Source of the DNA: Geosiphon pyriformis
Lineage: Eukaryota; Glomeromycota; Glomeromycetes; Archaeosporales; Geosiphonaceae
Length of the DNA stretch: 64,000 bases
Assembly: GCA_016748015.1 (NCBI GenBank)
Contig: JAAOMT010000070.1
Location: 62,001-126,000 of the forward strand
Reading direction: 5' to 3'
In this document: positions 2,566-41,741 of the stretch, one piece after another
How positions within the stretch are numbered: position 1 is the first letter of the stretch
How the letters are laid out: each line of letters begins with the position of its first letter
The notes under the pieces: model-generated
Told to the model about the DNA's origin: nothing
The model's input: only the letters and a program-made list of their open reading frames with translations
Databases searched by the model: none
Program-made: the position numbers and the translations under genes

Positions 2566-2569
2566 ATTA

Positions 2570-2890
2570 AATATATAAAAAATATATAATATAGTTTTAA
2601 TTAATTTAAGTGATTAATTACATGTAATTAAAATGTAAATTATATTTATTTTAAAGTATTTTGTTTATTATATTATAATAAATAATAATTAAATATATTT
2701 TTTAAAAAATAAAAAATAAAAATTGTTTTATATTAAAATTATATAAACTAAAATTTTTATTTAATTATTTTTATAATTAAATTTTTTTTTAAATTATATT
2801 ATTATTAGCTATTATAAAAAAATAATAATTGGTTTTTTATTAATTTTATATTAAAATAAAAAAAAATTTTTTGTTTTCTTAATTTTATGA
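2570..2890. other. AT-only spacer
   Basis: Nearly pure A/T sequence between two LINE remnants. No open frame, repeat unit or RNA gene could be recognised. Confidence 0.6.
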
Positions 2891-6659: not shown

Positions 6660-7657
6660 ATGGCGGCTTTTCGTGAAATAAATTTAGACAATCAAAAGCG
6701 AGAAACCCTAAGGTTTTTCCCATATTTGAATTCAGCACTAGCTAAAGGACGCCAAGTTGCAGTGTGTGCGCGCAAAAGAATCTCCAAGGTAGTCCTTAAC
6801 ATTATCAAAGCGTAAAATCTACTCCAAAGTTTCTCTCAGCTTTTGGACGAAAAACTGACTAAATAATTGATTTCGATAGGCTTTTTCCATAGATAGTGTC
6901 GAATATCACATTATCACCACACAAATCTTTGACGTCTTAAGCCGTTTGCACAGAGGCAAATCATATTTGGACAAGACACGCTTAGAAACCCCACGAGGCC
7001 TTGAAGAGGAGGCGATTGAATATCGAAAGCGGTTTCTGATGAAAAAGTATTTTCGTATATGGAAGAAAGTGATAGAAACACAGCTGCGTCTTTTGTATAA
7101 GAAACGAACTCTCGGCCTAGCTTTTGACGAATATGAAGAGAGCACAAAAGTAATTGATAAATTTTTTATGTATTTTTGAAAAAGTTGAAATTAATGACTA
7201 ACGTATAGAAAATATTCGTGACATTAAAGAAACGATTCAAGTTTGATTTTTACGGAAACTTATCATTACAACAACAAAGTAAATCAATTTCTATTGAATA
7301 TGTAAGAGCAAGATCAATTTTGAAGAAATCAAAAATGGTATATTATTCATAATTGAAAAATGAATTGTGGGTTGTGAACAAAACGCTTGCTGATACTGTT
7401 TTTACCTTTAGGTACCTCGTTATTTGAGATTCGTGAGAACAACAAAAGAAATCAGGGAAAGGTCATTGTCCAAGGATGGCGGGTTAAAAGTGAGATGGGA
7501 TCTTTTATCGAATCGGGAATCTGAATATTATACTTCATTGGCACCACAAATTTCCATTTTTCCCTTTGGCTGGAGTAGATATAGAAAAGAACGGGGAAAT
7601 TTTGGTGATGATATCTCGGCAGTAGAATATTGTACGACAGAGATGGAAATTGAATGA
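6660..7657 (+). CDS. Unrecognised 214-residue basic protein, three exons
   Basis: Proposed exons are 6660-6788, 6880-7149 and 7412-7657. Both junctions are GT-AG in phase 0 (GTAGTC...GATAG and GTAATT...TTTAG), and the frame stays open through all three, ending in TGA. The start is the first ATG (MAAFREINLDNQ). The middle exon is long, charged and predicted helical, rich in Arg/Lys/Glu (LEEEAIEYRKRFLMKKYFRI), followed by RFVRTTKEIRER. No catalytic motif, signal peptide or membrane helix is visible. The look is that of a small nuclear, nucleolar or organellar RNA-associated factor, but I do not recognise the family and assign no function. Intact splicing and an open frame argue that it is a real gene. 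Confidence 0.6.
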
Positions 7658-8646
7658 CCCGACATTGGAATCAATGAAAACTAATACAAGGTCACGAGGT
7701 CATTGCGGTCGATCTTCAAATTGAATTAAACTTTAATAAAACTTGAAAATAGCAGATGGCATAATAAATTAATTCCTGGGCGTGTGGGAAATCAGTTTTT
7801 CACAAGGAAATGCGATTGGTCGATAACCGAGTCCACTGCTACGGCTATTTTTACAATTCAAATTACAAATGTCTCATAGCAAAGTTCATGTATCCAAAAA
7901 GACGAAGAGGTATTGTATGACATTTAGGATTTCAAAAAGGAAAGCAAATAACGCGAAGCGGTAACACTGGCATTTTTAGCCTTAGCACTAATCACTTTTT
8001 CGTAGAAACATATAATATTTTCAAATACCCACCCCTTTGTTCATGTTCACGTACGACTTCAGAGAATTGGTTTCCGAGTTTCAAGAACTTTGACCTTTCT
8101 TGCCACCTCTTTACGGAGGACTACATACATCGTAACACAATTATTTGTGTTGCATACTGTATTTATATAATTCATTTCTTTTCCTACTTGACAAATTCCA
8201 TTCTTTTTTATTAGTTGCAAGATAGTATTATAAATTTTCAGAAAATTTAAGCGATTCGAATAGCTACAGGCCAAAGAAACCGACGGATAGGTACTGGGAA
8301 GGAGAAAAGGGTTCGAACCCCTTCAACTGATAAAATTTATCACGGCTTCGATGTTGAAATATCAAATATAAATATGAGAACCAAGACAAAAAATTTTATG
8401 GTTTCTTTGTATCCTGGATATATTTCTCATTTTTTATAATACACTTTTTTAACTTCAAACTCCATACCCCACTTGAGTTTTCTGAAAATTTCCCCTTTAC
8501 GCTAGGCGTAACTCTGTAATATAGCTTTAAATAATGCAATAAATATACGTACAGTTTCAATAATAAATCTAACTTGAACGTAAAATTGTGATTTTCCGAT
8601 TCTCAATCTTCAATTCAATCTATCACATTATAATAATGATGTTGAT
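7658..8646. other. Intergenic region
   Basis: About 1 kb between the unrecognised gene and the membrane-protein gene. A minus-strand open stretch at 8059-8274 shows no domain. A tRNA-like T-arm near 8308-8325 lacks a matching acceptor (see rejected items). 8560-8646 is A/T-rich and probably holds the promoter and 5' UTR of the next gene. Confidence 0.4.
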
Positions 8647-9708
8647 ATGACGACTTACAATCACAACACATTGCCAAATTCAATCGCCGAGTCTTCTATG
8701 TCAGATATAATTAATGGGACAATTTCGAACATGGTCAGACCTTCATCACAAGTCTCAACCACAGCATCATCGATTGAGATGTCGGGAGAAATATTATTGC
8801 CAATAGATGGGGAGCAACAGCCACAAAGTTCACTGAGAACAGAAGAAACAATCAATTCAAACATAAATGTTTTGTTTACAAATTCTTTTTCAGGGAGGAA
8901 CAATGACACTAATTATAACAACAACAATAATAATTTAGCGGAAACATCAACAACAAACCCAAATATTCCAATCCCCATGCCTCCTCGCGCACATGTTAAT
9001 ATTAATTTCCAACGACCGTCTCATTTATCGACATCATTTAACAATTCTCCATTACCCCAACAAAATTCAATAGAAACCTCTTCAAATTATCGCCTACTCG
9101 AATCGAATCCCAACCAGGTAACTTCAACAATATCTCAATCAATAACACCAACAAACCAACAGACCCCGTTTAACTATCGCCGTTCACCATCTCGCTGCAT
9201 AAACGTCCTTGTGCATACAACAATCATATTCATCCTAATAGTAACTACAAGTACCTACATTTGTATTTTGAAATTCGAAGGCCCGAAACAAGCTTACTTC
9301 CACGTAATCTTCGTTTTCCTATTAATCGCCGAACTTTCGATAGGTGAACGATATTATACTAGCAACCTGGCTCGAAATCGTTTGGGAGATGACAGGCGAC
9401 ATACAAATTATCTTCCACCACCACCACCCGATTCCGCAGTTAGGTTATGGGCTCCATGGAACGATCCTGAAGTTGCAATCCGAATTGCGGAGCGACACTC
9501 GAGAGCCGCTACGATAACGATAATGGCAGAATCATCGTTTGATCCTGTGTGTCCAATGGATTTTGTCGCACCACCTGCCTACGGGAATTTTAGGGATTCC
9601 ATATTGATTGACCCCACTACTGGGGGTGCTATTGAGGGTGATAGGCAAGGAAATGAAATGTCATCGATCCCAGGTTCGCTGCCTGAATATGACGCTTTGT
9701 CATTATGA
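8647..9708 (+). CDS. Two-helix membrane protein with PY-like motifs, stop followed by a long in-frame extension
   Basis: Single-exon 353-residue protein starting at ATG 8647. Residues 1-180 are a low-complexity Ser/Thr/Asn/Pro-rich region. Two hydrophobic segments follow, about 185-208 (VLVHTTIIFILIVTTSTYIC) and 216-233 (YFHVIFVFLLIAELSIG), joined by a short loop. The tail has a polyproline run at 257-261, PPAY at 309-312 and LPEYDALSL at the C-terminus. PPxY/LPxY motifs bind WW domains of Rsp5/Nedd4 ubiquitin ligases, so an adaptor or substrate role at a membrane is possible, but this is inference. The TGA at 9706-9708 is followed in the same frame by 177 further sense codons (9709-10239) of similar composition. 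The family is not recognised. Confidence 0.65.
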   Translation: MTTYNHNTLPNSIAESSMSDIINGTISNMVRPSSQVSTTASSIEMSGEILLPIDGEQQPQSSLRTEETINSNINVLFTNSFSGRNNDTNYNNNNNNLAETSTTNPNIPIPMPPRAHVNINFQRPSHLSTSFNNSPLPQQNSIETSSNYRLLESNPNQVTSTISQSITPTNQQTPFNYRRSPSRCINVLVHTTIIFILIVTTSTYICILKFEGPKQAYFHVIFVFLLIAELSIGERYYTSNLARNRLGDDRRHTNYLPPPPPDSAVRLWAPWNDPEVAIRIAERHSRAATITIMAESSFDPVCPMDFVAPPAYGNFRDSILIDPTTGGAIEGDRQGNEMSSIPGSLPEYDALSL

Positions 9709-10242
9709 TCATCCGTACGATCTAGTGTACATACAGTTCAATCAACAAGAGACGAAAATATGGGTCGTAGAAGAAATGGAGGTGTTGAAGCGACAGTTAT
9801 TGGTGGTGGTACTATTAGTAATAGTCGGGAAGTTGCAAATGGGAGTGATGAAAGGAATTTTGCCACTTTAATTGCTGGTAACAATAACGTATCTAGTTCA
9901 AGACAAACCACAACATCGATGACCCAACGGCCGACTATTGTGGAAGAAAATAGTGCCTCTTCTCGGAATCACCCAGGTGCTCAATCTGCTTTAAATCGCC
10001 ATCACACAATGTCCTCTCATTGTAATGTTCAAAGACAGTGTTCCAGTGCTACTGTTGCTGGAGGACGAATTCTGAGATCAATATCCCCACTTTTAGAGTA
10101 TCATCATTTCAATCCGCGACAACCTCAGTACACCGCACCGAATGGATCCGTAATGACTTCCACAAGTTTCCTTTTTGATGCAGCCCTAAACTCTTCTACT
10201 CATTTTCTAATTCCACTGCCCCGAACAAGGGGTTCACAATGA
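9709..10242 (+). CDS. In-frame C-terminal extension after the TGA at 9706
   Basis: 177 codons open in the same frame as the upstream 353-codon ORF, ending at TGA 10240-10242. An internal ATG at 9760 (MGRRRNGG) could also start it as a separate ORF. The product is Ser/Asn/Gln-rich like the upstream half (residues such as SSRQTTTSMTQRPTIVEENS), with no domain. Explanations are a nonsense mutation splitting a 531-codon gene, stop-codon readthrough, an unseen intron removing the TGA, or a second small gene. Sequence alone cannot decide. Confidence 0.4.
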   Translation, partial: SSVRSSVHTVQSTRDENMGRRRNGGVEATVIGGGTISNSREVANGSDERNFATLIAGNNNVSSSRQTTTSMTQRPTIVEENSASSRNHPGAQSALNRHHTMSSHCNVQRQCSSATVAGGRILRSISPLLEYHHFNPRQPQYTAPNGSVMTSTSFLFDAALNSSTHFLIPLPRTRGSQ

Positions 10243-10714
10243 GTTTCGTGTTGGTTTAGTTTTGAAGTTGGTAGGATAAAGATTGTGCAATGAGCAGTGT
10301 CGGTTCATCTTTCCCTTAGAATGAAATCAGTTGTAATTTATTGTTCATAAAATTGTAATTTTGAGAAAACAATGGTTAATCATTATCAAAAAAATAAAAT
10401 TTTCGGAGTCAAATACAATGTGTTTTCAGTTCGCCAAATAATTCAGAGAATTTTATAAAATGACCCTTGATTTCTTGGAATCTGTATTATCGCTACTAGA
10501 ACACTTACAATCTACACAAGAAATGCTATGATTCTGGGTTATTGTACGAATATATTCTGAGAAAAATCAAGACACTTATCAAATCTTAGCAATAGATTGT
10601 TCGTGGATGAAGTAAATCTCACGTTCGAATTTGCGAGGCCAAAATTCGAATCTTGTCCTATCGCTGATTAGTGGAATGCTTTATTCTAACGATTACAGCC
10701 GTAATAAATTATCA
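10243..10714. other. 3' intergenic region between convergent genes
   Basis: Holds the presumed 3' UTRs of the membrane-protein gene (plus strand; AATAAA near 10,395) and MUS81 (minus strand). No gene seen. Confidence 0.45.
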
Positions 10715-12971
10715 TTACTCGTAACTGTTAGCACACCAAATATGAGCAACCTTTTCACTAAGTGCGGGACCTATCTTTTTCCTGCCAATAACTTTGTTGC
10801 ATGTTTCCTTTAACATTTTCTTTTTCTCTTCTTCCGTAGAAAGTGACTCATATGCTTGATTAAGTGCATGAGGTGTTGAATAACGCTTTGCAATTTCTAA
10901 TGCCTTGTCACCACTAATTCCTCGAACAGTCATAAGCATCTTGACAAAAGTGTCACGTAATGTCAATGATCCGTTTTTGCTGTTAATCTCCGAATACATA
11001 GCATAGGAAATGTGATACGAGCGTTCAAGATGACTAGTTGACAGCCGTTGCTTCAACTCCAAAAAAGTAGAGCGAAACACAACATTATTTGGAATCTCAT
11101 ACAGAATTTTGTTCTATTTGAATAGAAAAAAAATTCAAAGTGAGAGAAATTCAAATAATAAACTTGATATTGAATATTTCTAACCTCATGCAAGGATTTT
11201 AGAATTTTGGTCATCGCGACTAAATAATCGATGGTTTGATCAATAGTTTTTGTTCGTTTCAAAAAGAAACCATTGATAACTTGGGTCTCAGACATGGCGG
11301 TTTGAACAGCTTGCATTCCAAACTCAACTGCTTCTTCAATTAAATAGTCTTCAACCAAGTATATTATCTGCTTAGTGCCAGACTTTTTAAGTCGAAACTA
11401 TCAAAATATGCAAAATTTGGCAGATAATTCATTTGACATTTGATTCAAACAATTTCAGAGTATGCTGTTGCTCTACCTTTTGTTCTTTGAACCGACCATC
11501 CTTGATACTCATTATTAGATCATCCATCCTTTTCCTTTCCATGACAAAGTCTAAAACAATTTCTTCAGGTTGTTTCCCACTTGAGCCTGAGGAATATCTT
11601 CGAGCAACCCAAATGACATCCCCTAATTCCAAAGCTCTCACTTGAGCATTGATACCCCTTTCTAACAATTGCTGCTCGAAATAGTCACGATCCTGTTTTT
11701 TTCGCATCTCACGATTATCGACAAGAAGAGCGACCTCAAAAGTTCCAGGCAACCATTTGATAGGTGTAAAAGACGGGTAGTCAGAAGTAGGCTTGGACGT
11801 CAGATTTTCGAAGGAGGAGGAGGAGGATGATGATTCAGACCTCACACCAACAATTGGAATATTTTGTGAGTTATCATCACTGTTTTTTTCAAGTTCAGTT
11901 ATTGGCTTATTTTCTGAAAATACACTGCCTGAAGTAGAGGCACTTTGATCAAGATTTGAACTAACATTGTCGAAAATGGTATAGCCACTATATTGAACCT
12001 TTTCTGCAAGCGAAGATATTTGATCAAAATTCATACTTAATGGATCTTCACCCGCTCCAAGCCCGGCAAAAACATCAACGCCACTTTTCTTGGACGTCTT
12101 GATCATTTGACGGGCAATTAATAAACCAGCATCGGTCAATGAATACCTTGGCGGACATCCATTCTTATAAACATAGTCCTTGTCTAGCAATATTCTCATT
12201 GAATTCCATGCTGTGTAATACTTTCCCTGTTTGGAAGATGGCATGTCAAAAGACGACTCACAAAATTGTTGTGCGACTTTGATCAGATCCGCTTTAGTCA
12301 TACTATGGTTGCTGCTAAGATATTTAGTATAATTGAGATATAAGGCGAGAATAATGCCATAACCGCCGGATTTATATTGCGGTAAATATATTCGTTTTTG
12401 CTTTTTTGAAACAGGATCCCGGACTTCAAGGGATTCTGTGGTCTTATTCATTTCGAGTTCATTAATTTTTGAAGTAGTCTTTGGAATATCATCTTTAAAG
12501 CATTGATTTAGAGAGCCAAATTTAAGAAAAAGACATATTAACAAAGAAAGAGAAAATAGTTATGATAGAAAGGGGACCAGGTGATGAATTCGTTTCACAG
12601 AGCGAATGACAAATACCGGGATGTTTGGGCATTGGTTCCCCGGTTTCTTTGCAATGTTGCATGAGTCTCTTTTCTAGCTTTTTACATATAGCTGGACCAA
12701 TTCCGTTTAATATTAAGGCTTCAATTGGATGGTTAAAAGGTAATGGGTATTTAGAGAGTGAATCAAAGGCCTATCATTAAAGCAGCCATTTTCAGTTATT
12801 ATTTGCCCGATAGAAAGAAGTGAATTCTGGCAGACAAGTACAAACTCTTTTATAAGTATGATAGGCTTTGCTATTTTCAGCCTTCGCTTTTTCCACCCAC
12901 TCGTTTATCCATTGCTGATATAATGGGTTACCACAAACCGGAGCCAGAGTGTAATTTCTTTTTGGCGGCAT
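10715..12971 (-). CDS. MUS81: Mus81, catalytic subunit of the structure-specific endonuclease
   Basis: Five exons in transcript order: 12971-12846, 12770-12617, 12492-11477, 11397-11185, 11113-10715; all junctions are GT-AG and in frame, about 635 residues. The N-terminus has the conserved CGNPLYQQWINEW and a helix-hairpin-helix region (ILNGIGPAICKKLEKRL). A winged-helix region follows (YYTAWNSMRILLDKDYVYK, then PPRYSLTDAG). The ERCC4 nuclease domain has VDNREMRKKQDRDYF, GDVIWVARR and the metal-binding ERKRMDDL box with SIKDGRFKEQK. The C-terminal HhH is TVRGISGDKALEIAKRY. The protein pairs with Eme1/Mms4 to cut 3' flaps, replication forks and nicked Holliday junctions in the nucleus. Length and all key residues look normal; the gene appears functional. 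Confidence 0.95.
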
Positions 12972-14100
12972 TTTTACCAAAGTTTAAAAGTAACAATAAT
13001 TAGGGTCGCGTCTAAATGCTTATAGTTGTTGACGATTCAAATTTTATCTGATTGACAATCGGTGTGTCACGGAAAAAATATCACCTATAAGATCATCATG
13101 AAATCAAGTCAATCCCATTTAATTACATCCGGATGTTCTTTAAATTTTTGATACGCGTCATAATTAAAGAAGGATAGTTCGGTCTCGTTTTCTTAAGGTT
13201 AAATATAAAATTTTTTCTAGATCAATAGTATCGATAAAAAAAAAAAAAATTGCTTCAACAATTGTCTACCTATTCCGTAAGATGATAAGGTAAAATTGTC
13301 ATCTTTTAATATCCAATCTTCATCGTGATCAAGATTTATGGTAAGATTTTGTGTCTAAAAAATTGTCTGAGGTTTGGGAATATGTCATATGTAAAATCTA
13401 TGAGATAACGGATTATCCCAAAGTTACCTTGGAACCATGAGCTTTAGTATAAATTTTAAGAGTATCTTTGGTCATGATTTAAATTTAAATTGAAAAGAGT
13501 GTTTTTTAAATTATTTCCCTGAAAAAGCAAAGTTTGAGTACAAGTATCCCTTTTACCATATTGAACTGTACGATATGGTCGTAATCCTGGAGTATTATTT
13601 ATTTCTTTTTTTTTCAAAAAAAAAAAATTTTTCTGTGTCAAAAGATATTTGAAAAGAAATATCAAAAAAATAAAAATGAATCGAAATAAATACTATCACG
13701 TAGCAACTCTTTTAGCTTTATTACTGTGATTGACTCCAAGTCCAATTGTTGCATGACAAGATTTTTTATTGAACGATATTCAAAACTTTTAATCAACCTT
13801 ATTGTGAGAGTTGAAGAGGTAGTCGGATTTAAAGTATTTGTTAAAGGATCAGCCAGCATGACTTTTAAAAAAAAATTTTTTTTGGGAAAAAAATATCAGA
13901 TCACAAATCTGATTTAAACTCGCCGGGGGGTTCAACGTTTTTCCGAGAAATCTTGAATTTTGGTTAGAAAAAATCTGTAATTTCAAGAATCTATTTTAAT
14001 AGATATTTGTTTACTTTAAAACTCAATTTTACAAAAATCTTTATTTTATGAATTATACAAAAAATAAAATAAAATATGGGTTTTAAGTTTCGATTCAATT
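12972..14100. other. Upstream region of MUS81 grading into the desert
   Basis: No gene recognised. 13,230-13,260 and 13,605-13,630 are homopolymer A/T runs. Small open stretches on both strands near 13,660-13,920 have no recognisable product. Composition turns strongly A/T-rich at about 13,960. Confidence 0.45.
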
Positions 14101-15583: not shown

Positions 15584-15593
15584 AAAAGTTAAA
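15584..15593. repeat. Candidate target-site duplication, 5' copy
   Basis: AAAAGTTAAA lies directly before the abrupt start of the LINE. The same 10 bases recur at 17489-17498 directly after its A-rich tail. The motif is A-rich, so chance matching is possible. Confidence 0.45.
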
Positions 15594-15945
15594 GGTTCTC
15601 AGCTGGCGCTCTCATCACCCTCTGCTTTTCCCTTCTTGTATTAATGTCAGTTCTTTGAATAATTTTTTGGCTGGTATCATCTGGATTTTTTTGGGTTGCG
15701 ATTTTTCTCTGGGTGGTCTCATGACCAATGTTTTTCGTTTTCAAAAGGGGACCCCAATGTCTATTGTTCTTAGCAAGTTAGCTTTTTATAAATGTGTTTC
15801 TTCACTTCGGTGATATGGAATTGCCTTTGTTAAGCAGCTTCGTGATCGAACTGGTTCTGTTTTTGAATAGAGGACTTTCAAGCAGTGGAAGAGACTAGAC
15901 CCTCGGGGCCCGATTCCTGATTGGTTCAATGCTACTGTTCGCTTT

Positions 15946-17360
15946 TTGTCTGGTTCTGGGTTATCTCTCATTTGTTCTCTTTTGCCACTGAATGTTGACT
16001 CATCTGACGTACTTGAGTCTTGCAAATTTAATGTTGTTTGCAATCGCTTGTTGGAGATTGATTCTGACTGCCTTTCTCTGTTTACGGATGGTTCTTTGTG
16101 TGGGCTGGGTACTCTTGGTATGAAGGCTGGCGCTGCTGTTTTTTTTAAGAACATTGATTTGGATTTAGGTGTGGAAGTTTCTGGTCTGGTTTCTTCTACT
16201 ATGACGGAGCTGCAGGCCATTGCTTTGGCTCTCGAGTGTGTCCCTTCTTCTCGTTCGGTTAATCTGTTTTCGGACAGCCAGGCCACTTTGGATGCAGCAG
16301 GTCAGAGTTAATGTTGGGGTGTTCGGATTTCAGGAATCAGTATTGGGTCGAACGCCACCATATTTCTAATGTTATTTGTCGCAAAAATTTGGATGTTAAT
16401 TGGATTAAAGTTAGAGGTCACTCTGGAGTCTTGGGCAATGAGTGTGCTGACACTTTGGCTAGGACTGCTGCGTCTTCTGGTGTGCATCTTCCTCACAGGA
16501 TCAATGAACATTTTCTCAAGGCTGGCGGTACTGTGGTTTCTGATAATTCTAGGCATTTTGTTTGTAATGTTTTCCACTCTATTCACCATGCACATTGGGA
16601 GGTTGGTTCTGGTTTTCGGGTATTGGTGGACAGCTTACGTGCTGATGTTGATTGGTTCAGGTCATGTTCGGTGTGGCATCCGAATTCTCATTTGGCCACT
16701 GGTTTCACTAGTGCTTGTACTGCTGATTCTCGGACGTATTTTATAAAGACGTTGCATCATTGTCTTCCTGTTGCTGTGCAAAAGTGACTTTACAATAAGG
16801 AGTACCCCAGTGTGATGTGTTTGTTCTGCGGCAATGTTGAAATTTCAGATCATGTGTTTTCGTGCCCATTCGATGCTGGTGATTATGCTCGGTTGATGAA
16901 TGCTCATGCATCTGTTTGGGAAACACACTCAGATTTATCTTACTTGACTTCATGTGTTTCACAGTTGCTTTCTGCTTGCACTTCCAATGCTGTTGTTGGT
17001 GCAGCTATATGTAAGGGCTTTGTTTTCAATGAGTGGTATCATGAATCTTTTTCTGTTTTCAAGGACTCTAAAATGGCAGCTCAGAATATCGTGGCATTCG
17101 TGCGTGATTTCTGTCTTGCATTCCATGATGATATTTGGCTGGTTCGTGTGAAACACAGAGCTATTATGGAGAAGAGTGGCTTTATCTCACGTGATGGTTC
17201 TATTCCTGTCTCGGTTTCTGGTCTTCCTTCGGTACTCTCGTCCAGTGTGATTAGATTATTGGGTATCACTGATGCTATTGGTATTGGTTTTGGGTTTCGT
17301 AAATCTAGTTTATTCTTTTCAGGTGTAGGTAACTTGGTCTCAGTGCATATAGGTGCCTAG
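15946..17360 (+). pseudogene. LINE ORF2 C-terminal half: RNase H and CCHC-like region
   Basis: Open pieces at 15946-16311, 16311-16787 and 16812-17360 form one broken polyprotein end. The first ends in the RNase H catalytic DSQ; the second carries the HSG...NECAD part of RNase H; the third holds the zinc motif and ends IGA-stop. RNase H acts in removing RNA from the cDNA hybrid during retrotransposition. The frame change at about 16,310 and the TGA at 16,785 separate the pieces, so no complete protein can be made here. Confidence 0.8.
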
Positions 17361-17488
17361 TGTTGTCTTGACTAGTCTGAGTGGCTGGTCACGTGTAGAA
17401 AGAGCATGATTCACACCTAGTTTAGATCACTTGTATGATGTATTGTACTAGGTAGTGTTTGGACCTCACTCGTTAAAATAAAATAAAA
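17361..17488 (+). repeat. LINE 3' tail, best-preserved of four copies
   Basis: Starts TGTTGTCTTGACTAGTCTGA and ends in AAAATAAAATAAAAAA. Copies with the same order of motifs occur at about 2450-2565, 4970-5095 and 25,440-25,560. The tail is the likely recognition region for the element's reverse transcriptase. Confidence 0.8.
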
Positions 17489-17587
17489 AAAAGTTAAATA
17501 AGACTAAATCTAACTTAATAATATATATATTTAAAAAACTTAATAATTTAAGTTAACTATAATATTATTAATAAAAAAAAACATGCT

Positions 17588-18399: not shown

Positions 18400-21300
18400 A
18401 AAAAACAGTATTAATGGCTTTAACTAATCACTTTTGGAGTTCTGAAACTGGCAATACTATTAAATTTGATAGTGTTAATATAGAAGAGAAATGTCTAGTA
18501 GAGAAAGCCAAGTGTTGATTATGGTAAAAAACACATTTCTAATGAAAAAAATTCCAATTGAATACCAAAAAGTCCATAAGTTAAAACCAAAAAAGTTTTA
18601 AATATACTTTTAAGGAAAATAAACTTCTTGAATAATAATGATAATGATAATATATTGTTAGATATTCCACCAAATTTCTTTTTTTTTCTAAAAAATCTGG
18701 TTTTTGTTTCTGTTAAGAAGTTTTTTGCTTTAAATATTGGTTTGAATAATGTTATTAAAAAGTTTTTTCAAGAAAAGTTTATAATAATAAAAAAATTATT
18801 CTCAAAAATCAATGGTTTTGAAAAGGCTTTTATCTCCTTAAAATTTGCTGGAATTATTCAAACTATGTTCACTTTTGAATCAAGCTTGGCACAAGTAATT
18901 ATTTTGGCAAAGACTAAAGATATTACTGTAAATACCAATCTTAAAAAATTAACTGTGTATTCAAATTAGACTGTAGTGATAAAAAAAATCTCAATCAGGA
19001 CATTGACTAATGCTGTATATGCTGTACTATTCGAATTTAGTAAGATCAAGTTAATCAAAATACAACTGATAGGACTATAACAAAAAGCTGTGATTAAATT
19101 TGGTTATTTAAATCAAGTTAATCTAGTTATAACAATGTAATTTGTCTTAATTAGAAAGAATACAATACATATAGTCAGAGCTAACATGAACAAAGAATTA
19201 TGGGATGTAAAAAACAAGTATAAAATGCTACTTTATATATTATCAGTAAGAACAAATGTTCACAATATTTGGAATTTTATTGGCTTTGTGTATAGAAAAA
19301 CATGTGTTATGAATTATTATTTAATTACATATGTCTAAACTAAGTATATAATAGTTTGTTTTAATTCTGTTAAATCATTAAAAACTGTTATAAAAACTAT
19401 ATTAGTGCTAAAAAATACCAATTTGTATTGATTACACCTGAGTTTGACTAAGTGTACTAAGTATAAGAATTTAAGTTATATATTATTAGACTGTATTGTA
19501 AATAGAAAAGCATCTCTTGGTGACTTAAATTGTAGAAATTTATCAAAAACAGATAAAAACAGATTAATAAACATTTATGCTAAATATTTGACACTTATTA
19601 TTTAACTTGTCTCTTTTGATGGCATCTTTTGGGCTAAAGTAGTTAGTGGAATATTCTTTTTCTTTTTTTTTGTGCAAAATAATTTTGTAGAATTTGGCTT
19701 TTTTCCAAAAATAAAGTTTAATTCACTTATGTCTAATAAATTGAATATTAGATTTGCTATTCTTAAGTATAGTCTTACTAGTTTCATGAGACAAATTAGT
19801 GAGTTGGTTGAGAGATTAAACAAACTTAAACCAATAGTTCTTCAGTTTAACTCTAGAAGTCAGTTATTAATAACTCTTTTATTACAGAATTAAGAGGCAA
19901 ATACATTAATAAGTGAGAGTTTGGGTTTAGTTACTAGTAGTAAGACTGTAGTAGAAGTGATATCTTTGGACTTTTTAGTAGTTTATAAGTTAAAAAACAG
20001 TTTTAGGTTTTTCAGCCAAGATAGACAAATTTAATTTGGTTTTAAAACTTTTTTTATCTTAATGACCAGTCTTGTCTAAAAAATTGTTACATGTAATATT
20101 AGAGGCATAAACAATTTAACAAAACAGAAAAATATTGTTAGATGACATAAAAAATTAGACAATTTGATTTCTATTGTAATTAAGACAAAATTAAAAAGAC
20201 AAATTAGATCTTAGATTAAGACCAGATTTGTAGAATTGAAAGTTTTTGTATTTGGTTTGAACACTAGTTATCTGAATTCGGAAGTGGTAATAGTAATGGA
20301 CAAATTCTTTACTTAATATGTATATAAGATCTCTGAAATTTTTGGTTATTTTTTCTTATTTTGATTGTTGTTTAACAAAAAAGTTTTGGTAATTATTCTA
20401 GGTTTTTATATGAGTGCTTCTACTAAAATATAATTTAATCAAGCTGGTAAAATGAATTTGTGGATTGTCAAGACAATTAACATAAGTTTTTATGTAGTTT
20501 TAGGAAATGACTTCAATAAAAATAGAGCAAAGTAATACATGAGCTTAAAAAAATGTTTTGATTTGGGTTTGTACAATTTTATATTAAGTATTAAAGTAGC
20601 TAAACTTCCAATATGAGATAATTTAAGAGGTGTTAAAAAGACTATTGATTATATTTTAGTTAGTAAATATTTTTTAACAATAGTAATCAAGCAAAATATT
20701 AATAGTGTTTCTGATTTTTTTGATACTAATCATTTGGCTGTTGTGATTTTACTTAGTTTAATCAGTCTTTAGAATGCAAATTTGAATGCTATTTGAAAAC
20801 ATGCCAATAGAAATTAATGGAAGTTTGGTCTTAAAAATACTAATCTGTTAAAATAGACCCAGTTTAAGGAATATTTATCAATTAGAATGTCTTAATCATA
20901 TTATGAGTTTCAAAGTACAAAGGAAAAAAACAATTGAATGTAATATAAAATCTTGTAAAATTGGTTATTATTAGATTAATAGACAAAGTATTTCCAGGAA
21001 TTGGTTTAAAAATTTCAATAATTTTAAGAACAAACAGTCTTTTAAGTACTATAAACTAGAAATTTTGGTTTTAAGAATAATTAAAATCTTTACTTCTAAG
21101 AATATTACTGAGTTTAATTGTTTTAAACAAATTTAATCAAAATTGAATACTGATAATTCAAGTGGTTTGTTTTTTTTAATTGAGTATAAAGCTAAGAATA
21201 AGAAAATTCTTCTGTATTTGTTAAAATTTAAAAAAAAATATTGGAAATTTAAGTATCAAAAATTTGAGACTAAAAAAACAGCTAATATTAAAAGCATAAT

Positions 21301-24300
21301 TAATAAAAAAATGGAAAATTTCAGTTTTAATAAAGACAATATGATTAAAAATGTTTTAGAATAGTCATTTTGAAAGATAGTTCTAAATTATCTGGTAATT
21401 AGAAAGAAGTTGGTTCTAAAGCCAGATGAGGTAAAGCAAAAGATTGATAAAATCATGATAAATTGAACAAAAAAGTGTAAAATTTTTTTAGTCTTGTCTA
21501 ATTTGTAAGCTTGTTAATATGTGTCTTTGGCATTATTATGGAAGAGTTTTCTTAGTATATTTTAATTGTTGATATCCCGTTTTAATTGTAATCAGTCTTT
21601 TGTGAGTTCCTCAATTTTATGTGTTAGATATTAATAATAATGTACTGAAGATTTTTTTTTAATATTGTGATATAAGTCTTCTCTTTAATTCTAGTTGTTT
21701 TTATATGTTGTGTACTTTTTTCTAAAGGCTAATCTAAAATTTATCTGCTGTCTGGGGTCTTTTCTGAGACTATTTTTGCAATTGCCTAATGTGTTTCTTT
21801 AATCTAGAAACATGGAATGTTAATGGCTTTTTTACAATTTTTTTAAGTATATAATAAAGCTTTTTCAATTTAATTAGCAACCATATGAATAATTTTGATC
21901 AGGAATTATTCTTCCAAAGGGTTCAGAAATGGAATGATAGTTTTATTTGTTAGAGAGAATATGTGAATTCTATTGTTAATCTTATAATTGTGATGTTAAT
22001 TCAATTTATTATTTTTATTAATTCTTTTTGAATAAAATTTTATTTAGATATTTGTTGCTTTTAATTAAAACTGTTCTATTTTTCATTATTAAAACTATTG
22101 TATATATATATAATTATTGTTTTACAAAATAATATCTTGTAATATTTTATTTCTATTATTTCTAATAGTGCTTGCTGCTTTTGTATAATAGTGCTTACTG
22201 TTATTGTAAAATAGTACTTATTGCTTTTGTACAATAGTGTTTACTGCTATTGTAAAATAATGCTTGCTGTTATTTGTAAATCATTTTTTTTTATAAATTG
22301 TTGCTGTGCTATTTCATGATTGGCTAATTTATAATTCCTATTAAATTCTTAAACTATAACAGCATATATAAATAAGAATATTTTCTTTGGTGTAATAAGT
22401 GTCATCAAAAAGATAGATTTGATCTCAATAATTGACAACTTGTCTAATAGCAAAGCTGCTAATTTATTTGGCATAACTAATAAACTTTGGAAACATTGTG
22501 ATAATATAATAGTAGACTGTTTCTTAGTTCTGTTAAACACTTGTTTAATTCTTGAAAACATTTCTGTTCTCTGGAAAAATACATAAGTTTTAATGATCCC
22601 CAAGCTATATAATTGGAATAGAGTTTTAATTAACACATAACCCATTGTATTGATTAAAACTGCCAAAAAAATCTTGTCTAAAATTCTATTAAATTGTATC
22701 TTATTTGCTTATGATAAATTTAATGTTTTCTATAGTAACAATTTCTTAGTTTTAAAAGGTACTTTAATTCAATCTTCAATATTTGTTGATAGTTTTATCA
22801 TAAAAGATGCTTTGAAAACATATATAAAAACAGGATTAACAGAATAATAACAGATTTTAGTTTTTTAAATAGTTATAAAATGCATAATAAACTAGATTAA
22901 GATAAGATTTTTTTATTATTTCTTTGGAAAATTTTTTATGATTCCCTATTGTGCAAAGTAAAACATCAAGAACATTTGTGTAAATATTAGATTAATACCA
23001 ATTTTGTGGTTAAAACAAACAGAGTAAAAGTCAGTAGAGAAAAAACTTCTTTCTTTGCAACTGGTATTTTTATAAATAACACAATTTGAATAAGAAATAG
23101 TTAGGCTTCAATGCAGTATATTTTAGACTTAACCAATTAGTTTTTTAAGATTAATAATATTTGCATTAACAATAAAAAGACAGTTGTAATTTCTATTAAC
23201 TAAAGAGTTGTATTTGCTTTATTATATATTGGCAATCCAACTTATTTTTATTGCCAAGTGTAAAAAATCTTACAAATATTTAGAAATTTTTTTGTTAACA
23301 GAAAGTATGTTTAAGCCAAGTCTTGTCAAAGCATATTTAGATATTAAGTTTTTTTCAAACATGATTCTCAAGAAAACTCTATCAGATAAGCAATTTTTTT
23401 ACTTAGTTTTAGCAGTTTTGCAGTCTATTATTGGTTACTAGATGTAATTTAGTTTTGTGTTTAAGAGTGTATATCAAAAGTGGAATGTTATGATTAGAAA
23501 AGAGCTTAAGTTAAAGACTAATTTGCTAAAAAACTTTCTTAATAAAGCTCTATATTATCTATTATTATATGAGCTTAAATTATTTGAGCAGTTTTAGGCT
23601 AAAAACAAGATGGTTTTATTAATTTGGTTTTCTAATGTGACAAGAATTCTTGGCAGTCTATTTGTGTACTGGTTTCTAAATTTGCAGATTGCAGACTGAA
23701 TGTCAAAAAACTTATTACAATATTTTGTCAAGTTAAAAGTTCATTCTATAAAAAATTTCTGGCAAGTATAATAAAAATTTTTTAAATAACAATATTTCTT
23801 TGACAAATAAACTATCTTGTGCATTTAATCTTCTTGTTACTTTTTTATGTTAAAAATTTTGGGTGGCTTATGTTACTTTAATATAACTCACTCTTTAAAA
23901 TATCTTGGTATTGTTTTTAATAATAAATTATTAAACAAACATGGCTTTATTATGGATTAAAAGATATTTTATCATTAAAAAAGACTGAGTTCAAAGAATT
24001 TTGTGCCAATATGGTTTGTAAAAGCTGCTAATTACATAAACAACTTTTCTGTTAATCTTATTGAGTACAGCTTTGATTTTGACAGTTCAGATTTTTATAG
24101 TTTAAGTGAATTTTTAAATGTTTAGGAGTATATACATAAACTTTAGGCAAAAAAGATTAACATTTACACCAATAGTTTTTTATGTAATCTAAGTACTATT
24201 AAAGTAATAAGTGGAGTGACAGTGTATTTTTCTGAGATTGTGATAAGTTTTGGTGTAAAAGTTTTTGGTTTGTTATTATTAATATTATTAGAATTACAGG

Positions 24301-25565
24301 TTATTGCTCTAACTTTAAAATATGTCTTTTCATTATGCTTGATGGTTTTACATACAGACAGCTAAATTATTATAAATATATCTATATTAGAGCTTATGTT
24401 GTTTGTGCCTAATTTTTGAAATAAATGCTGAATTAAAATATGTCATATGGCTAATCTAATTAGATTCAAAGACATTTCTGTTAAGTAAGTAAAGGTTAAA
24501 AGCTATTTAGTGAATATTAACAATGATAAAACTGATAGTTTTATGAGTATTACAGTACAGTTTTGTATTTTTTTACTTATTAGTGTACAGAAAAAATTTA
24601 TTTTGGTAAATGAGTTAGTTATTTTAAACAATGCTTAGTATTTTGTTTACAATATATATCAGATAATTAAGTATGCTTAATAAAAAATGAATCTGAGTAT
24701 GGAAATTTTACAGAATTTTTTTATTCAGATTATTAATTAGTACTGTACTGTTTCAGTATAGTACTCTAATTCTCATATGCTTTTTGGTTATGCTAACAGA
24801 CTTTTAGTGACTTTTTATACATATTTAATAAAGGTAATTTATAGGAGATTGCCAACTGTAGTTAAAAAAAGACTTTATAACATAAAATATTTAAGTGTAT
24901 TATATCTGTTTTGTAATAATATTAAACTATTTGATTATGTTTTTATCTGTTCAAAAAATGCTTTAGCATGCTCAAAAATCTTGTTAGATTATGCCAAATT
25001 GTGAACTTTTTTAGTAGAATCTTGCTCTTTATTAATTTTTTTGGTGTTGTATACTTTTCTGTTAAAAGTATTAAATATTAGTGTTTATGGGATTTTATAT
25101 AAAAAATTTGTTCTCAAAAATTAGATTAGCAAAGCTGTTTTTAGGATTGAAAATAAAAAAAATGCTATGGTAATAGTAACTAATTTTATTTAATATCTGA
25201 TTAATATATATTATAGTAGATTGTAGAATTTTAAGTCTAAATATAGAATTAATATGAAAAAAAGTGGTTTAGTTAAGAACACAGAGATTTAGTCTAAGAT
25301 ATGCAATGGCCTTTCTAAGTTTTTTTTATCTGGAGTAATCTGTATATTTAGAATTATTGAATTATTTGCTGTCAATTTTGAATTATACAAGATCTGTTTG
25401 TTTTTTTTAATTTAAATAATGGATTAGAAATTAATATAAATATATAATGTGGTTTTAATTAGTTTGAATAAATAGTTATATATAGTAAGTACATAAGTCA
25501 TATTTAGTTTGATACACTTAGTTTGTTTTTGTATGTTAAATAATAGTTAAATTGCACTTATAAAA
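18400..25565 (+). mobile_element. Near full-length but decayed LINE: ORF1, AP-endonuclease, RT, RNase H, C-terminus, 3' tail
   Basis: Domains appear in family order although riddled with stops. ORF1 lies at 18,410-19,900, with an open segment at 18628-18969 and a mutated zinc knuckle at 19453-19494. Endonuclease-like sequence spans 20,080-20,760: NIRGINNLTKQKNIVR, VLGNDFNKN, and TIDYILVSKYF ahead of a DTNHLAV motif. RT-like segments run from about 21,400 to 23,500 (NTMGY at about 22,635; KILSKILLN at about 22,665). RNase H is at about 24,155-24,365, and the CLFC zinc motif at 24,895-24,960 reads YLFCNN. The tail is at 25,440-25,560. Every landmark is present but none is intact. Confidence 0.75.
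19453..19494 (+). pseudogene. Mutated CCHC zinc knuckle of LINE ORF1
   Basis: Reads CTKYKNLSYILLDC. The CX2CX4HX4C spacing is exact if the first Tyr was Cys (TGT to TAT) and the second Tyr was His (CAT to TAT). The Ser at the usual Gly position also fits one G-to-A change. Three transitions in 14 codons remove nucleic-acid binding. Zinc knuckles in LINE ORF1 proteins bind RNA. Confidence 0.7.
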
Positions 25566-27300
25566 TAATAATAATAATGATAAAATAATAAAAAATACCC
25601 AAGTATTTGTAAGATTTATTTTTTTTAACTATTAAAATTAGTAAATTACTGATTAATAATAAGAAAATATTAATTTTATAATTAATAAAAATAACTATTG
25701 TTTTGTTATTATTGATTAAAATATCATTAACCTAAAAAAATTTACTTATTATATTCAAAATATACTAAATTGTAATTTGACTATAACTTATTTAAGTGTA
25801 TTATTAATAAAAATCTTAACAACAAAAAAAAATTCAAATTGACTTAATTCTTAATTTGTTTTGTTTTAATAATAAATTTAGTATTAATTTTATATTTACA
25901 TATATTTTTTTTTGTCTTTTAACTTTATATTAAAAAAAATTATAAAAGATTTACCAGAAAAAAAAATTTATTTTAATTTAACTTATTATATATATAATAT
26001 TTATTTATTAAACCAAAATTTATTATAATATAATTAATCTAGTTATTGTAAATTCTACTAAAAAACCTAATAAATTTGGTATATATTTTAATTTGAACTA
26101 AATTATTTTTCAAATACTATTAACTTATTAAATTATATGTTTTATATATATTTTGTAATATTAATTAAAATTTGTAATTTTTTTTTCCAAGTATTTTTTA
26201 TTACAAAACCAATTGCAAAAATTAAAAATTGCATTTTAGTATTTTTTAAAACTGAAAAATTATTTCTATAGAATATATTAAACTTATTATAAGCCAAAAA
26301 AATTTTGTCAAAAAAAATCTTGAAAAAAATCTTTTATGTAATTTTAATTAAAACAATAAGTCTAATATTAGTTAAAATTTTTTTTATTTATATGACTTGA
26401 AAATTATCAACACTTATGTTTTTTTCTAAAATTAAGAAATTAATTTACAAATCAAACAAAAATTTAAGAAGTCTAAAAACATACTTAATACTGATTTATT
26501 ATAATGTTTTTAAAGTTTATTTATAATTCTAAATAAATTTATAGTTTTTTTATTAAACAAATATTTTATCATGTTTAGTATTTTATTAAAACTAATAGCA
26601 TTTATAACTCCAGAAAAAACACTATTGTTAACATAAATTAATAACAAATATTGTTGATGTTACAAGTTAAGAACAATATTTAAAACTTTTTATTTTTTTG
26701 TTTAATTTTATATAATCTTATCTATTTTAAACTTAACTTTCTTAGACTTTATAATTAATTTATTATTATCAATTAAATAATTCAAAACTATTTTTAAAAA
26801 AAGTATTTCAATATATTTTTAATAGTATAACTTTTATTGATTTTAAAATTTTTTATTTTCTTATTAATAACAATCTTAATTTTTACAATCTTGGTTTTTT
26901 AAGACTTAATAAGTTTGAATACATAATAAAATTTTTTTATTTTGGCTAATTTAAATCTAATTTATATTAAAACCAGTATTTGAATCCAAAAGTTCTTAAA
27001 TATAAAGTATATTATTATTAGAAAACCAACAATGTACTAAAAAATTAAAGTTAATATTTAAATTTAATTAAAAAATTTTGTAAATTTTTAAAACCAAAAT
27101 TTCTAATTTGTGAAAATAAAAAAAAATTGGTAAAAATACTATTATAACTTATATATCAAAATTTAAAAAACACTTTAATGACTAAAAAATATATAACTTT
27201 CTAAATAATATTCTATATAAAATTTACATATAAGAAATTTATTGAATTAATAAACTTATAACTTGGTACTTAATAATTAATTATATTGTTAGTAATTTTT
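25565..27300. other. AT-rich desert
   Basis: About 85% A/T. No reading frame or RNA gene recognised; the texture resembles the oldest parts of the LINE remains. Confidence 0.5.
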
Positions 27301-27319
27301 AAAGATTTTCAGATCTAAA

Positions 27320-27640
27320 AATTTTGGTTGAGTTCTTTGTATAAAAGATAAAGATTTATTTAATAATTGTTTTTTCAAATTTTTTCTTTAGTGTAAAAAC
27401 TGGTTTAATCTAACAGTTATGCTTTTTTGATAAGCTATTCTTAAGTTTTTATTCTTGTTTTATGAGTCTTTTACCAGACTATTTTTGACATTAATATATT
27501 AGTACTTAATTTCTTAATCAATTAGTAAACAATAAAGAAACAAAAGAAAAAAAAGAAAAAAAAAAACAAGAAATTAGTATTTGTTAATAGTCATAATTAA
27601 GAGCTATTGATTCAGTGTAATTAAGTAGTAAATATTATAA
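27320..27640 (-). repeat. Inverted copy of the 1.69-2.10 kb repeat
   Basis: The reverse complement matches 1690-2060 in order across several blocks (ACTGAATCAATAGCTCTTAA, then TTAATGTCAAAAATAGTCTG, then ATACAAAGAACTCAACC). Purine-rich tract at 27,535-27,570 corresponds to the T-rich tract at 1755-1800. Decayed transposon of unknown class. Confidence 0.6.
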
Positions 27641-30600
27641 ACATAAATTGCTGATAGAATTAAAAAATAATAATATTGATTCAATAAAAAAAATGATAAT
27701 TTTATTTAATATTTGAATAATTATATTTTAAGATATAAAAAACTATTTTTTTAAAAAAAAAGTATGTTATTAATATTTATTGTTAACCAACTAAGAACTT
27801 GTGTGAATTTTTTTCTTATTTCTAATACTATTGCTATATATACTTAATTTTTATTATATAAGATCTTACATATTTTTACTCTTTTTTATGCTATTTTTTA
27901 GAATTGTAATTATTTTTGAGCAATATATCATAATTTCTTGAAAATATGTTGTGATTTCTTGACAATGTACTTATTTTTTAAAAATATGTATATTTCTGAA
28001 AATATGCTCATATGTTGAATACTATTTTTTTATTGGTCTATTTTTATAATTTGTTTTTTTTGTATTCTTTTTCTATAAATAATAATATTTATAAAAATTA
28101 CTTAAATTAATAAAAACAAATACAGCATAATAATTAATATTAAATTTTTTTTATACTTAAAACTTTCTAATTAGTTATTATATTAATAAGATTTAAAAAA
28201 ATAAATATGTAATTAATTATTTTTTTAATACTTTTAGAGTTTTTTTATGTATAAGTCTTAATTGTAAAACTATTAATTAAGAAGTTAACTAAATTTAAAT
28301 CAAAATACTTCTTAAAACTTACATATTTCTAAGTATTATTTTATTAAAATTATTACTTAAAATCACAAAAAAAATTTAAAATAATTAATAATAAATAATA
28401 AAACAAAGTTTTTTTAAACTTATAAATAAATATTCTTAAAACAAAAAAATAAATTTTAAAAAATTACAAATATTATTATTGAATACTATTTTTTATAATA
28501 CTAAAATAAAAAAATATTTTTACTATTTTTTTTGTTGTTTTATTTAAATTAAGTTAGTTTAATTCTATAATAATTAAAAAAAATTAAAAATTATTATTAA
28601 AAAAATGATATAAAAAAAATATAAATAATTAAAAAACCACTTTTTTTAGTCAATAATTTTAAAAAAGCTTTTAATTTCTAAGAAATTATTTAATTTAATT
28701 AAAACAATAATATTAACTATTAATAAAAGTGTTTTGCTAAATACTAATTTCAAAAAACCAAATATAATATTAAATTAAGTTGTAAATATTAAAAAAAATT
28801 AAATAAATATATTTAAAAAATCAATTATTTAATTTTATTTAAATTTTTAATAATTAATTAGATTGTAACAAAAATTTTTAATAAAATTTGTTAAATTAAA
28901 ACAAACTAATTTTTTAGTTTTTAGATAATTAATATTAATTAATAAAAACTTTATTTAAGTAAATAAAACTATTAAAAATCAAATTACTTAAAACAAAAAA
29001 TAAATTTAATACTTTATTGTTTATTTTGCTAATAAATATTATTGTTCATAATTTTAAATAAAATCTATAAAAAAAAATATATGAATTATTAATTATTTTT
29101 TTATAATAAACAATAAGATAAAATATATTATTATTTGTTTAAATTAAAAAAAATTTAAATAAATCTATTATATTATTATATTATTTAATAAAGTTAATTT
29201 ATATTAAATTAAATTTGGTTTGTTATAAAAATTGTAAATATTTTAATTATATCAAATTAAACTATAATTCTCTTATAACCAAAAAAATTTGTCAAATATA
29301 TTTTATATAAAATAAATTAAGATTATTTAATTATTATATATATTAAAAAAAATATTTTAATTTTTTATTTTATTATTTTTAATAATAAATTTTGGGCTTA
29401 AATAATATCTTTAATTTAAAAACAATATATATTAATAATTTTAATATTGTTATTAAACAAAATTTAAATTAATAATTAACATAAAATTATATTTATAATT
29501 TTTATTATTAATTAATATATAATATTATTTTTAATATAATTATTTATTATTTAGTTAAATTATTAAAAATTGCTATTTAATTAAATTATGTAATATTTTA
29601 AACTATGTAATATTTAAAAATTTACCAAAATATTTAATAGCTTATTAAAATAATTTGTAATTTGTTAAAATAAATATTTAATTTATTAAAATATTAGCGA
29701 AAAAAGCATTAAAACTCGAAATACTATTACAACAAAAAATATAAAAGAAGAATCTTTTTATTTAAAAAAATATATTAATTTATTAATTATTAAAATAAAA
29801 ATAAAAATAAAAATATTAATTAATTAGTCATAATAAATCAATAAAATAAAAATTTATTTTAAAAATCCAAAACTTTTTTTATAATTAAAATGCTTTAAAA
29901 ATTTACAAAATTTTGATTAATATTTTGAAATTAACTAGTTATTAATTTTAATAACAGTTTAATTAACTCTATACTTAAACAAAAAACATTATCTTATTAA
30001 AACAAATATTTATTTATTTATTTATTTTTTATTTTTTTATATTATTAAATAGCTTATAATTAAGATTTTTTGTAAAAAAGTTAACTTTTATTGCAATATA
30101 ATTACATATTATTAAAAAACCTATATTTAAAAATTTTTATGAAGAATTAACTTTTATTAACATAAAATTGATTATTTTATTATAAATTCAATAATATAAA
30201 TAATTTAAAATATAAAAAAATATTTTGAAAATTAATTAGCTTATTAAAAATTTAACAGCTTTTATTAACAATAAAATTAACAACAATTTAGTATTAATAA
30301 TATAAGAAAAATAACCAAAAATTTTGTGTTTTTTTAGAAATTTAAAACAACAAAAAGTTTATTTAATGTGATAATCATTTTTAATACAACAATCCTAAAA
30401 TATTACCAGTTAATTTATACTTATTATAAGCAAAAATTTGATAAAAAATTTTTCAAAAATTATATTAATAACTACTTTTTTAAAAATTATAATATTTTAA
30501 AAAGCAAAAAAAATTTTTATAAAAAACCAAAATATTGTAATCATAAAATACTTGACACCTATTTTTAAAACTTGTTAATCAACAATTTTTACTTAACTTA

Positions 30601-34104: not shown

Positions 34105-36414
<2,310 letters not shown>

Positions 36415-37076: not shown

Positions 37077-37157
37077 GAGGATAGAGGATAGAGGATAGAG
37101 GATAGAGGATAGAGGATAGAGGATAGAGGATAGAGGATAGAGGATAGAGGGTAGAGG
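37077..37157. repeat. GGATAGA minisatellite, about 10-11 units
   Basis: Perfect 7-bp head-to-tail units until the last copy, which changes to GGGTAGA. It lies about 660 bases upstream of the MADS-box start. Confidence 0.9.
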
Positions 37158-38511
37158 TTGGATTTATTTCGAATGAAGATAGTCATTGGGAATATATGAC
37201 AATGAGTCGAACCTGATTGATTTAATTGATGTAGGATTGGGAAATTGTTTAAATTTCATAGGTTTTTTAATTCCCAAAATTTTTATATTTCGAATCCCAT
37301 ACTTGAAACTAGGCTCAAATGACGTCGCAATCAATTTTTAAATATTATGAAAAATAAATAATAAAGGGCGTCAAACTTAAAAAGGAAATATCTGGTGAAA
37401 AGCCTTACTATCTGGATTCATATGAGGAAAGGGAAACAGGTGTGCATATGAGAAAAAAAAAAATTCCATGAATTATTAAGTTACCATGTCTGGTGTTTTT
37501 GTGTTAAGGGTTAATTGTTTTTTGTTGATCCTTAAAAAGGAAAATTCATATTTAAAATTTTTGGCTATGAATGTAATACCATGATTTCTGTAATTTTTTT
37601 TTTTTTTTTTTGACCGAGTGAGAAATACGGATAATGATTTTCAAGACATTCACTTAAATTAAAAAGCGGCTTAAGCGATTTTTTTTAATTTTAGAATGAA
37701 TTAAAAAGATGATTACTGACTTGGAAAAAAGATTTTTAAAGAGAACCTTTGAAATGAAATTAAATTAAATGAAATGCTAATGATATTGCGCTAAATTATG
37801 ACCGACCTATCATTATGTGAAAATATTTTGGGAATAAAATCATCGATCAACAACTAAAAGTGTAAAATATTTTCCCGGTTTTATGTGAAATTCTTTTTTA
37901 GGATAAGAATGATTCACATTAATGCCAGTAAAAACTTGACTAGAAATTTTTTATTTGGGATTTTCATCACGAAGAGGTAAGCATTTCTGCATGGAGCAGT
38001 TTTCGAATTTTCTTGTTCTATGATCATCCTGGTTCCACCTCGAAATTTGGATAAAATTAAGTGATCCGAGTTTTTAAAACTTGAGAAAATCCTCAAAAAA
38101 AAAAAATTTTTTTTATTATTTTTTATTATTTTTTATTATTATTTTTTTTTAATCACCCTTACTATTCTTAAAAGATAGACTTCTGTAACATTCTACAACT
38201 TAAAAATAACTTTTTATTCAGTCTATTTTTATTTTTATTTTTAAAACTCAAAAAGCTGTACTTCTTGAAAAAACTGCAAATGTTCCATGTGAAACAATAC
38301 CTATTGACCAAAAAGAAATCGATCATCTTTCGATCTTTTTGAACAATATTGTTGTGTTACTTATTTTCCTGATTTCATGATTGTATCTAAAAATCTTTTT
38401 AAGTAACAAAATTTTTTTTAATTAATCCAAACTCAGAAATTAATTTTGTCATTTTTATTGAAAATCATTATGTTTAAAAATTGGGGGTTTATAATTCAAT
38501 AACAAAATTTT

Positions 38512-38726
<215 letters not shown>

Positions 38727-40504: not shown

Positions 40505-40576
<72 letters not shown>

Positions 40577-41643: not shown

Positions 41644-41741
<98 letters not shown>

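Follow-up and report, generated by a model that had tools for sequence, protein, structure and literature searches.

The window examined here is the whole 64,000-nt stretch at positions 62,001 to 126,000 (forward strand) of contig JAAOMT010000070.1 from Geosiphon pyriformis, and this work concerns the decay of its transposons by C-to-T transitions, centred on a worn copy of a long interspersed nuclear element (LINE; family A) at 18409–25565 on the + strand. This copy (GC content ~0.23) lies in two blocks, 18409–21530 and 22364–25565, flanking a nested dispersed repeat of ~830 bp (family N; 21533–22364, + strand; GC 0.224, 1 CpG) that is inserted in the LINE. Copies of family A elsewhere in the genome are mostly 73–84% identical (best 40 of 5615 candidates), and family N occurs at 23 further genomic places with 84–87% identity among the matches listed. 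In family A, one frame in each block holds 66 or 46 stops against 114–125 in the other two. A Pfam scan of six natural stop-free fragments gave no match, and family A is called a LINE because of its RNase H match to a younger LINE family (family B; 15589–17492, + strand; GC 0.42; 46 CpG against 82.7 expected) carrying RNase_H (PF00075). Two RNase H fragments of family B at 15946–16787 (+ strand; E 4e-7 and 3e-6) were used to locate the TDG motif of family A. Family B has 39 further copies of 85–92% identity (best 40 of 3322 candidates); the window copy looks 5'-truncated, and at most of the 19 further loci examined the 5' flank is repetitive, with GC ~0.40. The fourth family is repeat G at 3–2157 (no strand assigned; aligned over 3–1509), in which TGG codons have become stops and CpG is almost gone. 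Its designation as Gypsy in an earlier note on this DNA is unconfirmed, since the single fragment scanned gave no Pfam family above the cut-off.

As that note had proposed, we aligned genomic copies and counted each substitution by context, in six alignments covering the four families, all drawn from the window's own genome (124.7 Mb, 406 contigs). C>T and G>A dominate the differences between repeat copies, which is a feature of repeat-induced point mutation (RIP), while transversions are rare and CpG is the strongest context. Together with the absence of this bias from the gene duplicates tested (see below), a transposon-directed cytosine mutator is well supported. For family B, 20 copies including the window copy were used of 40 listed, the 19 others being 89–92% identical to the window copy; for family A 6 copies in 18409–21530 and 11 in each later block (a core of 8 omits L016–L018); for family N 7 of 24 listed; and for family G the window copy and 10 of 31 others listed. 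Of 20 regions retrieved from the genome, L019–L022 enter no substitution count, and L002–L008, being duplicates of other loci, were omitted. Among 17982 C cells of family B we counted 2266 C>T (0.126 per site) against 34 C>A (0.0019) and 10 C>G (0.0006), and among 19801 T cells 114 T>C (0.0058), 79 T>A and 16 T>G. Resolved by 3' neighbour, C>T in family B reached 0.318 at CpG, 0.086 at CpC, 0.061 at CpT and 0.060 at CpA, so that the preference for CpA, given for RIP in an excerpt of PMC12543289, was not found in this family; families A, N and G have the same spectrum, with CpG highest and CpA not above CpT. The copies of family B are alike in load, each carrying 56–74 transitions at CpG (of ~210 CpG positions) and 32–64 at CpH (H being A, C or T). 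Both strands are affected about equally in family B (C>T/G>A 0.307/0.330 at CpG and 0.078/0.061 at CpH), and the balance is near-equal in both LINE families. At CpH, the C>T rate in each of the four families is higher after a 5' T than after a 5' A or G. No such preference exists at CpG in family B, where TCG is not favoured among NCG, and CHG has no advantage over CHH. The private singletons of family B, which were set aside, comprise 210 CpH changes, 53 transversions, 27 T>C and 3 CpG changes, the last being few because CpG positions are mutated in several copies. Since T is frequently the majority state in family A already, the T>C counts there are probably hidden C>T changes; pairwise, ancestor-free estimates, which presuppose a star-like history and give too low a value for shared decay, replaced majority-state counts in that family. 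Estimates of CpG survival in family A draw on small numbers of cells (78 to 134) and are weighted towards survivors.

The same decay can be followed at individual residues, for which the earlier note had named several defining codons. At the zinc-knuckle remnant (19453–19494, + strand) the CX2CX4HX4C spacing is present, and Tyr occupies the positions of the second Cys and the His; the aligned copies give no evidence that these Tyr residues are derived, as all six have Tyr at both positions. The first Cys is TAT in 4/6 copies and TGT in 2/6, including the window, and for the Gly the window has AGT, two copies have AAT and three have GAT. For the C-terminal zinc-motif remnant (24870–24940, + strand) the conversion of Cys and His into Tyr stands at two coding-frame codons, 24903 (TAT in the window, TGT in 8/10 siblings) and 24936 (TAT, with CAT in 3/10), and is not seen at the Tyr codons 24876 and 24888 of the same frame, where Cys or His was found in 0/10 siblings. 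The RNase H remnant of family A (24147–24362, + strand) aligns over 69 amino acids with the TDGS motif of family B (E 1e-13), and the change of TDG to TN is seen in the copies: at 24171, the Asp codon, 10/11 have AAT and one has GAT, and the codon that follows is AGT, AAT or TAT in ten copies but GGC in the remaining one. This state is common to most copies and so perhaps did not arise independently in each. The Trp codons said to have become stops at 370–440, in repeat G, did so as well, with TGA at 407 and 431 of the window against TGG in 7/10 and 3/10 siblings. Read from the codons themselves, the changes TGT-to-TAT, CAT-to-TAT and TGG-to-TAG each amount to C>T in a CpA context, and TGG-to-TGA to C>T in CpC; these examples therefore fall within a non-CpG component, with the loss of CpG as a second one.

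This second component is visible across the window. CpG was said to be nearly absent from the deserts and present in the gene islands, and the observed counts, set against those expected, bear this out far beyond chance: 3 against 90.5 in the LINE region 18400–25565 (Poisson P 6e-35) and 2 against 71.1 in 1–5900 (P 3e-28), compared with 238 against 242.9 in the gene island 6000–13700 and 607 against 681.5 in the islands at 40700–62000, a mild yet significant deficit (P 0.002). Within the latter, the gene island at 40700–51000 serves as a single-copy internal control whose sole match is one 206-bp paralog. The AT desert at 25566–28500 has a GC content of 0.13 and 0 CpG against 13.0 expected. 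It consists of old repeats (25590–28500, no strand assigned; main copies 70–80% identical, many genomic relatives), so that decayed repeats make up at least some of the AT-rich desert, and very old repeats go down to GC 0.09–0.13. Low GC alone is not the cause of the CpG loss, since the AT-rich control at 61950–62850 (GC 0.18), which has almost no repeat matches, these beginning only at ~62701, retains 9 CpG against 7.4 expected. CpG loss may spread into flanking DNA: in the flanks of family B, CpG counts were 3 against 21.9 expected up to 500 bp from the element and 76 against 114.3 farther away, with masking that covered only the loci analysed and with the four cleanest flanks expecting too few CpG near the element. 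The standard dinucleotide RIP indices are weak and ambiguous in the deserts of the window and were excluded from the evidence.

The earlier note had named two outcomes that would speak against a repeat-directed process, transitions no commoner than transversions among copies and the same bias in single-copy neutral DNA. The first was not seen, nor was the bias found in gene duplicates, which served as the control outside repeats because a comparison on single-copy neutral DNA needs a second genome. The duplicates comprise kinases (20 loci of 146 rows, 12 of them in six disjoint pairs, 85–95% identical over ~0.6 kb each) and one methyltransferase gene pair (~90% identical, 1.0 kb compared), and all intervals given are block bootstraps on pairwise estimates. 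The ratio of CpH C>T decay to transversions is 23.0 [16.4–35.7] in family B (17–33 over the sets of B copies), 63.1 [54.8–73.4] for all 11 copies of family A and 108 [90–131] for its core of 8, 24 [14–53] in family N and 23 [19–28] in family G, against 2.6 [2.1–3.7] in the six kinase pairs and 8.2 [5.2–14.7] in the methyltransferase pair. The interval of the latter reaches the lower ends of family N and of the five older copies of family B (11.6–29.0); the split of family B into 15 young and 5 old copies was made after the transversion counts had been seen, which makes the value for the family as a whole the fair measure. For CpG, decay over transversions amounts to 43–152 in the transposons against 3.7 and 5.5 in the genes, whose transition-to-transversion ratios are 0.9 and 2.9, with no clear CpG excess. 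At 4-fold sites of the kinases (5/6 pairs, one without an open frame being dropped) 12 transitions and 12 transversions were found in 340, and protein selection is therefore unlikely to mask a bias. No RIP signature was found in these six kinase pairs and one methyltransferase pair, whose short stretches make them an imperfect test. The PF07714 kinases themselves number 597 first-look candidates, with paralogs up to ~95% identical, several of them on contigs C402 and C271.

Genes with the PF00145 methyltransferase domain were found at seven places in the genome. Motif VI reads ENV in 6/7, the seventh (the second copy on contig C318) being unreadable, and the RID/Masc1-type enzyme that the earlier note had suggested looking for did not turn up: none of the seven shows an EQT or EET triad, although intron-split genes could escape detection. 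This triad is the mark of RID/Masc1 as described in an excerpt of PMC6709928. The gene on C96 is DNMT1-like and SRA domains occur at two loci, so that machinery for CpG maintenance, as expected for decay through 5-methylcytosine (5mC), is encoded. The gene on C355 matches 9baq/9bap, which we take to be Neurospora DIM-2, at 1e-32, equal to its DNMT1 match, compared with 1e-10 for C318 and 1e-13 for C96. C355 and, by resemblance, C327 have a BAH-like stretch (judged by eye) upstream of the methyltransferase; from these sequence features the two may form a DIM-2-like pair and are candidate writers of non-CpG methylation. On C318, a C5-methyltransferase gene whose class is unclear (PPCQGFSNANTRG...ENV) is present twice, 32 kb apart, at 788280–789372 (L029/L031) and 820713–821336 (L033); the two copies are ~90% identical, one is apparently broken, and they differ by an ordinary substitution spectrum. 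Two further genes are of DNMT2/TRDMT1 type, L037 on C346 and L035/L036 on C307, where one DNMT2 gene is usual, and a gene resembling Sel1 repeats by eye adjoins one DNMT2-type gene; together with the kinase expansion, this would be in keeping with Glomeromycotina.

Elsewhere in the window, long AAT/GAT triplet arrays lie at 35238–35690 and 38504–38730, with an inverted counterpart near 40507–40620, and a tandem array with the 7-base unit GAGGATA at 37077–37160.

We propose as the best reading, to which we assign a probability of about 0.6, that transposons carry 5mC at CpG together with weaker non-CpG methylation and decay by deamination. Cytosine methylation would mark the transposons, chiefly at CpG, where DNMT1-like and SRA/UHRF1-type proteins would write and maintain it, with weaker methylation at other cytosines for which the two DIM-2-like enzymes are candidate writers. 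With poor repair, 5mC would then deaminate to T and so erode copies on both strands, CpG first and CpH next, until old copies sink to roughly 9–13% GC and join the AT-rich deserts. The data themselves establish the C>T spectrum and its contexts, near strand symmetry in the LINE families, the lack of this spectrum in the gene duplicates tested and the presence of the enzyme genes, and CpG as both main target and depleted dinucleotide is as expected of 5mC decay; the methylation of these transposons, the deamination chemistry, the roles of the enzymes and the recognition of transposons we infer. In Rhizophagus irregularis, high CpG methylation is reported at most transposon loci in the excerpted text of PMC8647823, and DIM-2 methylates all CpN according to an excerpt of PMC13297926. 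Of what the earlier note had read from the window, a repeat-directed mutator or methylation with deamination is supported; RIP in the ascomycete sense is not. Several observations weigh against the methylation reading. The CpH component prefers TpC and CpG in family B does not, which possibly points to a separate process, and the CpT preference given for DIM-2 in PMC13297926 is absent from family B; nor is CHG preferred to CHH. Across families, C>T decay fails to track transversions: the core of family A and family B have similar transversion loads (0.0051 and 0.0041 per copy) and CpH losses of 0.42 and 0.091, respectively. Families G (0.248/0.368) and N (0.190/0.133) are moderately uneven between strands. 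CpG is also mildly low in the kinases (305 against 398.2 expected) and, as given above, in the islands (607 against 681.5), so that the contrast between repeats and genes is not all-or-none. The intervals of the decay-to-transversion ratios of families A and B do not overlap, and methylation may differ between families; the mismatch would mean either that methylation is strongly family-dependent or that decay comes in bursts.

A less likely alternative is an active, transposon-addressed cytosine mutator in an early-diverging fungus, distinct from RIP, which would skip duplicated genes, attack CpG before TpC-biased CpH, act in family-specific bursts and make the AT-rich deserts that structure the genome, and which might use the C318 methyltransferase or the DIM-2-like pair. 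Rather unlikely, in our view, is a RIP-like mutator that recognises repeats and converts C to T enzymatically in bursts, in CpG-first and TpC contexts unlike those of Neurospora. The overwhelming C>T in every context, the ~4.5-fold difference in CpH decay at similar transversion load, which suits bursts or family targeting, and the unclear methyltransferase in two copies on C318 speak for it, as do RIP-like TpCpG decay in Microbotryum (excerpt of PMC5381629) and RIP suggested beyond Dikarya for Entomophthorales (excerpt of PMC11105155). Kinase and methyltransferase duplicates of 85–95% identity lack the signature, however, CpA is not preferred, the EQT/EET triad was not found among the seven genes, and same-strand clustering is weak (484 against 458, standard deviation 14.5). 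Methylation might also be confined to CpG, with the CpH changes stemming from raised deamination or poor repair in silent chromatin. The 5' T preference at CpH in four families, which CpG in family B does not share, and the lack of a preference for CHG fit this, and GC contents of 0.09–0.13 in the oldest repeats imply that non-CpG loss must go far. We nevertheless consider it improbable, because CpH C>T over transversions lies far above the gene duplicates and because, under a general repair defect, other changes too should be commoner. A C>T bias of the whole genome would suit its AT-richness, and the CpH C>T and T>C rates of family B alone lead to an equilibrium GC of ~8%; the transition-to-transversion ratios of the gene duplicates, which show no clear CpG excess, and the retention of most or all CpG in islands and in almost repeat-free AT-rich DNA already disfavour it and make it very improbable. 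Least credible, and likewise already disfavoured, is an APOBEC-like deaminase acting on single-stranded retroelement cDNA. LINEs are copied via cDNA, CpH prefers TpC, and families G and N are somewhat strand-uneven, but the strand bias expected of such an enzyme is lacking in the LINE families, where C>T about equals G>A, CpG is the main target, and APOBEC_N (PF08210) gave no match at E 0.1 in a search confined to that deaminase family.

The decay described here bears on a reported negative: according to an excerpt of PMC8647823, Venice et al. 2020 did not detect RIP signatures in Gigaspora margarita or Mucoromycotina. Index-based screens could miss a spectrum of CpG plus TpC, since the indices are weak in this window and copy alignments strong. 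The proposal also explains, in a form open to testing, the origin of AT-rich deserts and the way in which a genome can wear down transposons while its gene families expand, an expansion that a homology-triggered mutator should hinder. A partial literature search, covering titles and the openings of abstracts, returned no account of this spectrum in Glomeromycotina, which leaves novelty unproven.

Compared with known systems, the decay resembles Neurospora RIP (RID/DIM-2) in its C>T on both repeat strands, its premature stops and its AT-rich end state, and differs in having no CpA preference, in sparing the tested gene duplicates and in that no EQT/EET methyltransferase was found. RIP in the Neurospora sense is not supported because of these three points, context, spared duplicates and the RID triad. 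With the RIP-like TpCpG hypermutation of Pucciniomycotina (Microbotryum; excerpt of PMC5381629) it shares CpG-centred hypermutation of transposons; here TCG is not preferred in family B, a T before C matters in CpH instead, and the load is heavier, at 56–74 of ~210 CpG per copy compared with 1.7 of 35 target sites reported there. In Rhizophagus irregularis (Dallaire et al. 2021, excerpt of PMC8647823) CpG methylation of transposons would give a CpG loss like the one seen here, and DNMT1-type and SRA genes are present in Geosiphon, whose decay behaves like a transposon-directed 5mC system with an unusual CpH part. The methylation calls reported there concern CpG, and the excerpt gives no substitution spectra; in Geosiphon all CpH contexts decay too. 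The RIP suggested for Entomophthorales (excerpt of PMC11105155) likewise lies outside Dikarya in fungi with PF00145 genes; the argument there draws on a composite index and on domain architecture, whereas the present one is built on copy alignments with gene-duplicate controls.

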